64,000 nt of DNA from positions 124,001 to 188,000 of the forward strand of contig WGMR01000005.1 of NCBI GenBank assembly GCA_016124955.1, written 5' to 3'. The translations under genes were made by a program, and so were the position numbers. Under the pieces are notes generated by a model. That model did not search any database. It had not been told where the DNA came from and saw nothing but the letters and a program-made list of their open reading frames with translations. Positions within the stretch are counted from its first letter, which is position 1. Each line of letters opens with the position of its first letter. This document shows, piece after piece, positions 26,903 through 32,330 of the stretch. The DNA is from Alphaproteobacteria bacterium. Its GTDB lineage: Bacteria > Pseudomonadota > Alphaproteobacteria > UBA9219 > RFNS01.

Positions 26903-28261
26903 TCAGCTCTTCAGTGCGGTATCTGCCGAGAACTGAGGTTTTGTTTCAGGATATGACGGCTTCATCAATATGGCTTTACGGGTTTCCCGCGCGGTATCGA
27001 TGAAACGGCATATCGCCTTGTTGTCATTCCTTTTGATCGCGTCGATCAGGATGTCGAGCTTCTCGATGTACTGCGATACCATTGCAGGAAGCTGTGTGCC
27101 GTATTGGGCTAAAAGAGCTTGCACGGCGCCCGGATCGATGCCGATAGGCGCCATACCATCTTTCAAGCTGGGGTTTGCGATAGGGGCAATCGGCTGACCT
27201 GTGATGGTTTCGGTGTGCCGTGCATTCATGGCGATGGCGGTGCTGATCAGGGAAGCAAAGGCGCTGCCTGCCAAATCCTCATGGGCTCCCGAATATAAAG
27301 AGGCGCGTAGCGGGTTTCCGCCGCGGTCACCCAACACTTGCCTGGCATACGAATGTGCAACATCAATGATGCCCTTCAGCTTGTTGAAACCAAGCCAGCG
27401 ACCTACGGTCCGCCACAGAGAAGTTTCATCTTCGGCGATCTTGGCGATTTGCCTGAGGGTATGTTTGAAGCTCTCGGCGGAACGCAAAATATTGGCGCGG
27501 TTTTCGGTGAATATGGCGCGCCACATTTCCGTGCCCGCATCGGCTATGCGGGTCATGCCGCGCTGTCCGTGAACCCATCCACCAATATCCGCACCTTCGC
27601 CGTCTTTAAAAAAATCGGTCTGGATCAGTGCAAACATCAACGCATGCTGAAGATGGGATGTAACGCCAAGCGTTCTGTCATGCGCATCCGCAGCCATTTC
27701 ATGCACATCGGCGCCAAGCGAACGCCAGAAACCGGCAACGAAGTTGTGGGCCTGCGGGTTGGCGCCCGGTATCAACGCGACCGGCTTGCCTTGAAACAAG
27801 GTGGCGCCTTCGCGTGAATCCGGGGAAGCGCTTAACGGCCCGGAACCGGCATTCCCATTGAGCGGGTGCGCGGGAACGTAAGCGTTCTGCAGCCCGGCTT
27901 CCTGCAACGCGGCGTTTATATTCCGTATCGATGCCTCTTTAACGGACCCAACATCCGTTATGATGGTTGAGGGGGAAAGATATGCCCGCAGGGATTTTAT
28001 GGCGTTGCCGAACTGGCTTATCGGCGTCGCGAGGATTGTGAGGTCTGAATCGGTGACCGCGTCGGGCGTGGTCGTAAACGTAATACCGCTTCCATCAACC
28101 CCCGCGCGATTGAGCGCTCGCGCGAAATCATTTTTAAGACGGGCATCCTGTTCAATGACGGCAATTGCGGCATGCGGATACTGTCTGCGTACCGCCATAA
28201 CAAGGGATGTGCCGACTTGTCCGCCGCCAACAATTGTAATCTTTTTAATGTCTTCAACCAT
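26903..28261 (-). CDS. Prephenate-dehydrogenase-like protein with extended C-terminal region
   Basis: 452 residues. The N-terminal Rossmann fold starts ITIVGGGQVGTSLVMAVRR; TIITDVGSVKEA and VPAHPLNGNAGSGPLSA correspond to the DVGSVK and HP.aG...SGP motifs of TyrA-type dehydrogenases. The substrate-binding helical domain follows. The C terminus is about 150 residues longer than a plain TyrA and lacks an obvious ACT domain. It sits alone between glmU and glmS rather than with hisC or aroA. It may be an arogenate/prephenate dehydrogenase or a repurposed relative. Confidence 0.72.
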   Translation of the reverse strand: MVEDIKKITIVGGGQVGTSLVMAVRRQYPHAAIAVIEQDARLKNDFARALNRAGVDGSGITFTTTPDAVTDSDLTILATPISQFGNAIKSLRAYLSPSTIITDVGSVKEASIRNINAALQEAGLQNAYVPAHPLNGNAGSGPLSASPDSREGATLFQGKPVALIPGANPQAHNFVAGFWRSLGADVHEMAADAHDRTLGVTSHLQHALMFALIQTDFFKDGEGADIGGWVHGQRGMTRIADAGTEMWRAIFTENRANILRSAESFKHTLRQIAKIAEDETSLWRTVGRWLGFNKLKGIIDVAHSYARQVLGDRGGNPLRASLYSGAHEDLAGSAFASLISTAIAMNARHTETITGQPIAPIANPSLKDGMAPIGIDPGAVQALLAQYGTQLPAMVSQYIEKLDILIDAIKRNDNKAICRFIDTARETRKAILMKPSYPETKPQFSADTALKS

Positions 28262-30285: not shown

Positions 30286-30324
30286 GCAAGCAACATGATT
30301 GTTGCTTCTGGCACGCTTGCTTGC
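30286..30324 (+). repeat. Hairpin region with mutually exclusive pairings
   Basis: Just past the glmS stop, AAGCAAC-atgatt-GTTGCTT (30288-30307) forms a 7-pair hairpin. GCAAGCAA (30286-30293) can instead pair with TTGCTTGC (30317-30324). Without a U-tract it is a weak terminator at best for glmS; it overlaps the leader-peptide promoter. Confidence 0.4.
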
Positions 30325-30330
30325 TAAGAT
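30302..30330 (+). promoter_or_regulatory. Promoter of the aromatic leader and DAHP synthase
   Basis: TTGCTT (30302-30307), a 17-base spacer and TAAGAT (30325-30330). A start about seven bases past the -10 falls on 30337, the A of the leader ATG, which would make the leader mRNA leaderless; consistently, no ribosome site precedes that ATG. Confidence 0.5.
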
Positions 30331-30336
30331 AAATCC

Positions 30337-30420
30337 ATGAAAACGCAGCTCCTTTCAACCACCCTGACCAGCCAAGCCCTTGGCGGTTATGGCTATTTTG
30401 CGTTTAGCTGGTTCCGGTAG
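30337..30420 (+). CDS. Aromatic-rich leader peptide of the DAHP synthase attenuator (27 residues)
   Basis: The peptide begins MKTQLLSTTL and ends GGYGYFAFSWFR. Six of its last ten residues are aromatic: Tyr18, Tyr20, Phe21, Phe23, Trp25 and Phe26. That composition, its position 90 bases before a DAHP synthase gene (the committed step to Phe, Tyr and Trp), and a terminator-like hairpin whose 5' arm overlaps codons 24-27 are the hallmarks of a ribosome-mediated attenuation leader like pheL or trpL. There is no Shine-Dalgarno sequence; the promoter placement suggests translation from a leaderless 5' end. Known for trp operons of Alphaproteobacteria; for a class II DAHP synthase it is my inference. 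Confidence 0.7.
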   Translation: MKTQLLSTTLTSQALGGYGYFAFSWFR

Positions 30421-30442
30421 CCCCGGAAACATAGAGCTTTTT
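30406..30442 (+). terminator. Attenuator terminator in the DAHP synthase leader
   Basis: AGCT (30406-30409) pairs with AGCT (30435-30438) and TTCCGG (30412-30417) with CCGGAA (30423-30428), giving a 4+6-pair stem, followed at once by TTTT (30439-30442). The 5' arm is the Ser-Trp-Phe-Arg codons of the leader, so a ribosome stalled for charged Trp or Phe tRNA would prevent folding. A competing pairing, GGCTA (30391-30395) with TAGCC (30418-30422), is available. Confidence 0.6.
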
Positions 30443-30509
30443 ATCCCCCCTGAAATTTGTTCTAACCATATGCCGGCATCGTTCGGCAGCTAACCGATAT
30501 GTGTGTGCG

Positions 30510-31880
30510 ATGACAAAAACATGGACCCCCGAAGGCTGGCGCGCGAAGCCGGTCAAGCAAATGCCGGTTTATGCGGATGAAGCGAAGCTGAAAGCCGCCG
30601 AATCGCGGATGGCAAAAATGCCGCCGCTGGTTTTTGCCGGCGAAGCGCGCCGTCTGAAAAAATCGCTCGCGGATGTATCGCAGGGCAAGGCTTTCCTGTT
30701 CATGGGCGGCGATTGCGCCGAAAGCTTCGCCGAATTCGAAGCCAACAACATCCGCGATATGTTCCGCGTGATTTTGCAGATGGCTGTCGTGCTCGCTTTC
30801 GGCGGCGCGACGCGGGTGGTCAAGGTCGGCCGCGTGGCGGGGCAGTTCGCCAAGCCGCGCTCGGAACCGAATGAAACCCGTGATGGCGTGACGTTGCCCA
30901 GCTACCGCGGCGATATTATCAACGGTATGGAATTCACCGCCGCCGCGCGCGAACCGGACCCGGACCGCATGCTGCAGGTGTATAATCAGGCCGCGTCCAC
31001 CCTGAACTTGCTGCGCGCCTTCGCGCAGGGCGGCTATGCCAACCTGCACGAAGTGCACCGGTGGAACATGACCTTCGTGGGGCAGAGCGAGCAATCAAAG
31101 CGTTATGAGAACCTGGCCGAGCGCATCGACGAGGCGCTGGCCTTCATGGCGGCCTGCAATATAACGGGGGAAACGGTGGCCGAGATCCGGGAGACGGATT
31201 TCTTCACCGCGCATGAAGCGCTTTTGCTGCCATACGAGCAGGCGCTCACCCGCGTCGATAGCACAACCGACCAATGGTACAGCGTTTCGGCGCATATGCT
31301 CTGGATCGGCGATCGCACGCGCGATCTTGACGGTGCGCATGTGGAATATATGCGCGGTATCAAAAACCCGATCGGTCTGAAATGCGGACCTTCGACCGAC
31401 CCGGCCGATTTGCTGAAGCTGATCGAGGTGCTTGACCCGGAAAACGAACCCGGCCGTTTGACGCTGATCAGCCGCATGGGTTCGGATAAAATCGCCGACA
31501 AGCTGCCGCCGCTTTTGCGCGCGGTGAAGAAAGCGGGACGTGCCGCGATTTGGTGCAGCGACCCGATGCACGGCAACACCATGACAACCAAAAGCGGCTA
31601 CAAGACCCGCGATTTCAACCGCATCGTGGACGAGGTTAAAAGCTTCCTTTCCATATGCCGGGCCGAGGGGGTTTATCCGGGCGGCGTGCATCTGGAGATG
31701 ACGGGGCAGCATGTGACCGAATGTATCGGCGGTGCCGGGGCGATTTCGGAACAGGGGCTGAACGAACGCTACAACACGCACTGCGATCCGCGGCTGAACG
31801 CGCATCAGGCGCTCGAACTGGCCTTTTTGATAGCGGAACATCTAAAGCAGCTGCGCAAGGTAAACGTCGCGGCCGCCTAG
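30510..31880 (+). CDS. Class II (plant-type) DAHP synthase
   Basis: 456 residues. The plant/AroH-II signatures are plain: [45 protein letters not shown], and the C-terminal [17 protein letters not shown]. It joins phosphoenolpyruvate and erythrose-4-phosphate, the first shikimate step, using a divalent metal bound by the conserved Cys, His, Glu and Asp. Start taken at ATG 30510 ([10 protein letters not shown]); a GTG nine bases earlier is possible. Regulation by the upstream leader peptide and attenuator is proposed. aroC, a later step, is 12 kb away. Confidence 0.94.
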
Positions 31881-31955: not shown

Positions 31956-32330
31956 ATGGTTAAATCAGCGACGGCATTTTGCACAATTCTGGCGGGCGTG
32001 ATCCTGCTTGCGGGCCCGGCAGCGGCAGGCAGCATGAATTACGCGAACGGGCAAGGCGTGTGGCAATCAAGCAATTGCCGCAAACCCGGCACCGCAGCCG
32101 GCATCGGCGGTCCCGCAGAAATCCCGGCCAACGATCTGAATGCCCAGATCATCCATCACAACGCGGCGGTTGCCGAAATGGCCGATTACATGCGTTGCCT
32201 GAGCGACGAGGCCAGCAATGACGCGCGGGCCGCGGCCGAAATCATCACCAATGCCGCCGCACAGGAAATCCAGAAGACCCAAAGCGCGATGAGCCTGAAG
32301 GCCCAGCAGCTGAAGCAAGAATCCGAATAA
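31956..32330 (+). CDS. Secreted/periplasmic hypothetical protein
   Basis: 124 residues. A signal peptide (KSATAFCTILAGVILLAGPAAAG) is followed by a mature part of about 100 residues with Cys in SSNCRKPG and MRCLSD (one possible disulfide) and a helical, Ala/Gln-rich C terminus. GGAGG six bases before ATG 31956 fixes the start. No family recognised. It lies between the DAHP synthase and nadE on the same strand. Confidence 0.68.
   Translation: MVKSATAFCTILAGVILLAGPAAAGSMNYANGQGVWQSSNCRKPGTAAGIGGPAEIPANDLNAQIIHHNAAVAEMADYMRCLSDEASNDARAAAEIITNAAAQEIQKTQSAMSLKAQQLKQESE

Follow-up and report, generated by a model that had tools for sequence, protein, structure and literature searches.

A leader peptide gene with a run of aromatic codons upstream of a class II DAHP synthase gene, and its isoleucine-codon counterpart, in one alphaproteobacterial order

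The aroF gene of Corynebacterium glutamicum encodes a class I DAHP synthase. As summarized in a review, the aroF operon is preceded by the leader aroR, which carries a Phe-Tyr-Phe run, and is induced by stalling under Phe limitation (Neshat et al. 2014, via review PMC11802643). Compared by description, aroR-aroF is the closest described case to the locus reported here. In S. meliloti, transcription of trpL begins on the leader's own ATG (PMC7298713). Actinobacteria have leader peptides, some of them leaderless, that lack intrinsic terminators, and Rho or other mechanisms have been proposed there; the S. lividans transcript is leaderless, and Rho has been proposed for the mycobacterial cys leaders (PMC1262725, PMC8079986). 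Rho dependence is also attributed to E. coli tnaC (cited in PMC1262725). In the literature searched, with most subscription journals outside its scope, we found no publication combining "leader peptide" and "class II DAHP synthase".

The leader gene and the hairpin around its stop codon

The window analysed here is a stretch of 64,000 nucleotides from an alphaproteobacterial genome, in which a preliminary description had placed an aromatic leader peptide in front of a class II DAHP synthase. The relevant features are the following.

30302-30330, plus strand: promoter, with the -35 hexamer TTGCTT (30302-30307), a 17-nt spacer and the -10 hexamer TAAGAT (30325-30330); spacing common to 24 of 26 leaders of both types
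30337-30420, plus strand: leader peptide gene MKTQLLSTTLTSQALGGYGYFAFSWFR, 27 codons, stop included in the coordinates
30388-30414, plus strand: control codons Tyr18, Tyr20, Phe21, Phe23, Trp25 and Phe26, from codon conservation and frame-specific bias
30412-30428, plus strand: hairpin B, UUCCGG-UAGCC-CCGGAA, with the stop codon in its loop, conserved in relatives
30429-30458, plus strand: G-poor, C-rich linker, candidate Rho-binding region, including the non-conserved T-run 30438-30442
30471-30488, plus strand: hairpin C, UGCCG-GCAUCGUU-CGGCA, from an own-versus-swapped pairing test
30510-31880, plus strand: class II DAHP synthase gene, the presumed regulated gene (TIGR01358, 718 bits; PF01474, 698 bits), with ATG at 30510 and GTG at 30501 as a possible start

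The promoter and the 27-codon reading frame with its six aromatic codons are present as first described. TAAGAT ends 6 nt before the leader ATG at 30337, and the stop codon is the TAG at 30418-30420. An equally aromatic reading frame was obtained in 3 of 20,000 dinucleotide shuffles of the leader's intergenic region. Upstream of the leader lies glmS (TIGR01135), and the DAHP synthase of the window is the sole class II match in the source genome. A tyrA-like gene of the prephenate dehydrogenase family (26903-28261, minus strand) is found near the DAHP synthase gene, divergent from glmS, and no aromatic leader was seen in front of it on inspection of the window. Between the DAHP synthase and NAD+ synthase genes, a small reading frame (31960-32330, plus strand) encodes a product whose N-terminus resembles a signal peptide and which has no NCBIfam match.

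Hairpin B is built around the stop codon: its 5' arm UUCCGG (30412-30417) corresponds to the Phe-Arg codons, and its 3' arm is CCGGAA (30423-30428). Relatives likewise have the stop codon inside or at the loop of this hairpin, and the core UUCCGG/CCGGAA is present in most aromatic leaders. The 5' arm had initially been drawn as Ser-Trp-Phe-Arg; its Phe-Arg part is conserved, its Ser-Trp extension (AGCU/AGCU) is not. At locus L026 both arms are changed, to UUUCGG/CCGAAA, with pairing kept, and L011 carries one G-U pair. RNAalifold applied to the aromatic set predicted hairpin B alone; none of its pairs covaries there, owing to a one-base misalignment of L026.

Conservation in the order and an isoleucine-codon version

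Conservation was assessed in 33 genomes of one alphaproteobacterial order, mostly drafts, 29 of which carry class II DAHP synthase; the region upstream of each of these 29 genes was inspected individually. Of these 29 genomes, 17 have an equivalent leader in front of the orthologue: 1 of 4 in the family of the source genome, 0 of 5 in a second family and 16 of 20 in a third. The close family members L004, L010 and L013 and the whole second family are without a leader at this gene. The 17 reading frames comprise about 27-31 codons, with 6-8 aromatic codons among the last 12, and usually end in YWFR; endings found in the order include GGYGYFAFSWFR, APYFTYFYYWFR, GGAFAYGFYWFR and RGAYICGYFYWFR, as well as GGVYGFYFAYWFR, SGAFTYGFFYFG and AFGLTFAYFYFR. 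Summed over the last 12 codons of the 17 leaders, 111 of 204 codons in the leader reading frame are aromatic, whereas the two alternative frames give 23 and 31. The N-terminal half of the peptide is not conserved; which aromatic residues occur, and in which order, varies between leaders, while their number keeps to the 6-8 given above. Aromatic codons and hairpin, which the preliminary description had proposed to look for in relatives, are thus both kept, in favour of the finding, and we consider the leader in front of the DAHP synthase gene confirmed.

Feedback by all three aromatic amino acids had also been suggested. Phe is found in 17/17 leaders, Tyr in 16/17 and Trp in 15/17, so that the suggestion is supported for Phe and Tyr and probably for Trp, whose sensing would be less certain than that of the other two. 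No full-length trpE was seen in several genomes of the order, among them G005, G019, G020 and G031. Two of these, G020 and G031, have the only leaders whose run contains no Trp; other genomes of this kind retain the Trp codon, and there is no clear link between the Trp codon and trpE. A separate Trp leader at trpE was considered and dropped, since no convincing Trp-rich leader was seen in the trpE upstream regions of the order.

Outside the order, no reading frame in 85 DAHP synthase upstream regions exceeded 4 aromatic codons among its last 12, and a model of the element searched against 385 genomes of the class gave no convincing match. The leader had no Rfam match up to E = 5, and at Rfam gathering scores the window returned tRNAs only. 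In one genome of the second family, an orphan aromatic element ending in GFYFYGFR (L133, G012:C139:1752-1847; E 1.3e-7) lies away from the DAHP synthase gene. It has no in-frame ATG within 130 nt, an apparent 3' part of a tRNA follows downstream, and it is possibly a relic or a contig artefact.

A model trained on aromatic leaders only (R1) also gave weak matches with E values of 0.01-0.1. Three of these are Ile-rich leaders, ending in AIISIIIPA, SAIIIIPA and AAIIISIIIPA, and the remaining matches in this range were noise. The stop codon of the three lies in UUCCUGC-UAA-GCAGGAA or close variants, and behind the hairpin follows a similar G-poor linker, AACAYACRCRC..UCUCACCCACA. Searching with the stem pattern returned additional Ile leaders, while a reversed control pattern gave no match. 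Ile-type leaders were found in nine genomes, five before citramalate synthase, one before ilvA (threonine ammonia-lyase, TIGR01124) and three before short genes. The source genome itself carries one.

G000:C7, upstream of 324616, minus strand: Ile leader of the source genome (locus L188), with citramalate synthase downstream

This leader, MMKMNSDAFDFSHLMLTGVIFVIAAIIPIIPA, has the hairpin UCCCGC-CUGA-GCGGGA and is located 96 nt before the citramalate synthase gene (TIGR00977, 657 bits). The stems UUCCUGC/GCAGGAA and UCCCGC/GCGGGA are unlike the aromatic type in sequence and still paired. The two types have UUCC in common and translate it in different frames, as UUC-CGG in aromatic and as AUU-CCU in Ile leaders; it is therefore not there for the peptide. 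To judge from these comparisons, the hairpin is kept as RNA through sequence changes in both leader types.

Where the module is reused, its codon run matches the pathway, with Ile codons in front of citramalate synthase and ilvA. A codon run that follows the pathway is a hallmark of attenuation that senses tRNA. This agreement is strong evidence for ribosome-mediated, amino-acid-specific attenuation and is hard to explain otherwise; attenuation by the aromatic codons is, in our judgement, very likely. The preliminary description was right about leader and target but incomplete, having missed the reuse with Ile codons in the same genome.

Of the three short genes behind Ile-type leaders (L173 in G023, L175 in G027, L136 in G026), the two compared with Pfam gave no match. 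At L173 and L175, the gene after the leader resembles the one behind citramalate synthase at L185, which would fit a loss of citramalate synthase with retention of the leader. Searched for further leader types, a profile of the linker alone returned the known leaders and noise.

Both leader types also share their promoter spacing. Of the 17 aromatic and 9 Ile leaders together, 24 of 26 place the end of their best -10 hexamer 6 or 7 nt ahead of the leader ATG, whereas in shuffled upstream sequences an average of 5.6 of 26 had one within 5-8 nt. A Shine-Dalgarno motif was looked for in the 20 nt upstream of this ATG and not found. The promoter spacing predicts a transcript start on the leader AUG, and the transcript is probably leaderless, in line with the initial proposal that the ATG stands about where transcription should begin.

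The region behind the hairpin and the proposed mechanism

The linker of about 30 nt behind hairpin B is low in G (median empirical p 0.018) and has an excess of C over G (median p 0.034), values that were computed against windows of the same loci and are descriptive because the sequences are related. YC steps are mildly raised (median p 0.17), which makes the reading as a rut site weak. Rho is encoded in the source genome. Given this Rho and a G-poor, C-rich linker, we favour Rho-dependent termination, and would put Rho as the effector a little short of an even chance.

Classical attenuation would instead use an intrinsic terminator, formed by hairpin B with the T-run or by hairpin C, with a stalled ribosome allowing an antiterminator. 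In the source genome, the outer AGCU/AGCU extension of hairpin B directly precedes the T's, and hairpin C, whose position is kept among aromatic leaders while its sequence varies, reached a z of -3.5 in the own-versus-swapped pairing test. However, the T-run 30438-30442, which begins 10 nt after the stem, is not conserved. What relatives share behind hairpin B is the G-poor, C-rich linker and not a U-tract, and most have no U-tract behind either hairpin B or hairpin C. A scan with a terminator consensus found no site on the leader strand. Moreover, hairpin B encloses the stop codon, so that a ribosome at the stop would prevent it from forming; in this position of the stop codon it is like the 1:2 hairpin of the trp attenuator and unlike the 3:4 terminator. 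The "hairpin plus TTTT" that had been taken for an attenuator is, since the T-run is not conserved, no conserved terminator, and we dropped hairpin B with the T-run in this role. Neither a conserved 2:3 antiterminator nor a U-tailed 3:4 terminator was found in the order's leaders, and we regard control by an intrinsic terminator as unlikely. Two other pairings were considered. An outer stem between GGCGCG before the codon run and CGCGC in the linker, seen by eye in some species, gave no clear signal in the window scan and was rejected. The leader 5' end may pair with the linker and the hairpin B 3' arm; the signal for this reached a z of about -4 in the aromatic set and was weak in the Ile set, in scans that covered hundreds of correlated window pairs. 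As an antiterminator this pairing failed to show the expected sequestration when folded with a stalled ribosome (unpaired probability 0.640 for the native 5' end and 0.655 for swapped 5' ends, p 0.71), and it is kept as a lead only.

The leader could also act on translation, by masking the ribosome-binding site of the DAHP synthase gene until a stalled ribosome unmasks it. Such translational attenuation is known for other leader-peptide systems, among them examples cited in PMC13236596, and two citramalate synthase loci, L144 and L145, have a linker able to pair with the Shine-Dalgarno region. But when the pairing of leader segments with their own ribosome-binding region was compared with that for the regions of other species, no segment did better with its own DAHP synthase region (p 0.55-0.73), and the linker showed no co-variation with its own region either, Ile leaders included (p 0.60). 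The complementarity at L144 and L145 is not general; we rejected a leader segment masking the DAHP synthase Shine-Dalgarno, and hold translational attenuation to be improbable. A conserved small protein or RNA acting in trans, rather than a cis attenuator, has precedent in the RNA and peptide of S. meliloti trpL (PMC7298713), and the orphan element, at E 1.3e-7 and away from DAHP synthase, could be read in this way. The unconserved N-terminal half, the drifting order of the aromatic residues, the Ile codons that the module takes before Ile genes and the absence of an in-frame ATG within 130 nt of the orphan all argue against it, leaving action in trans very improbable.

We propose, with a probability of roughly 0.65 for the mechanism as a whole, that the element is a ribosome-mediated attenuator with Rho as its most likely effector. 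The transcript would start on the AUG of the 27-codon leader gene, and the ribosome would translate the run of aromatic codons (Tyr, Phe and Trp) that leads up to the stop in the hairpin B loop. With an ample supply of charged aromatic tRNAs, it would reach the stop and leave; hairpin B would then form and the G-poor, C-rich linker be exposed, and transcription would end before or early in the DAHP synthase gene, presumably through Rho. If charged aromatic tRNAs run low, the ribosome would stall on the run and block hairpin B, and transcription would enter the gene. Reading frame, codon bias, hairpin, linker, promoter spacing and reuse with Ile codons are supported by sequence comparison; we infer that Rho is the effector, in which direction the element responds and the way in which a stalled ribosome would keep Rho off. 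Tentatively, and with somewhat less than an even chance, the order may possess its own exchangeable attenuator. It would combine a leaderless promoter and a pathway-specific codon run with a UUCC/GGAA-based hairpin around the stop codon, and its conserved G-poor linker, as a shared effector element, would pass the transcript on to Rho, so that no intrinsic terminator is needed. In front of DAHP synthase this RNA part would carry aromatic codons, in front of citramalate synthase and ilvA Ile codons.

Attenuation by the aromatic leader would bring the first reaction of the shikimate pathway, here catalysed by a class II DAHP synthase, under control by the charging of aromatic tRNAs; for this enzyme class we found no earlier description in the literature searched. 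The comparison also suggests that a single attenuator part, working without an intrinsic terminator, serves two unrelated pathways, and attenuation controlled by a leader peptide, possibly Rho-dependent, becomes directly testable with a short sequence.

Comparison with known leaders

Like trpL and pheL of gamma- and alphaproteobacteria, the order's aromatic leaders have their run of pathway-product codons directly ahead of the stop, and a hairpin that spans it; as for S. meliloti trpL, the predicted start is on the leader ATG, here from sequence alone. They differ in their target, DAHP synthase, in carrying all three aromatic residues in the run, and in that we found no conserved 2:3 antiterminator or U-tailed 3:4 terminator. 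With the mycobacterial cys leaders, the LEU element and S. lividans LeuL1 they share a codon run near the stop and the lack of a U-tailed terminator (PMC1262725, PMC8079986). By contrast, these actinobacterial leaders have either poly-pyrimidine motifs that lack conservation or a codon run that pairs with the Shine-Dalgarno. Here the linker is conserved and common to two pathways, and no pairing with the Shine-Dalgarno region was detected. The tnaC peptide arrests on free tryptophan and controls degradation, whereas the codon run described here points to tRNA sensing and to control of synthesis. What tnaC, as cited, has in common with our leaders is a C-rich candidate Rho site closely behind the leader stop codon. 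C. glutamicum aroR-aroF, as far as the review describes it, is alike in placing a leader peptide with aromatic codons before a DAHP synthase; it belongs to an unrelated bacterium and has a short aromatic run, while the aromatic leaders of this order carry 6-8 aromatic codons, with Trp in most.
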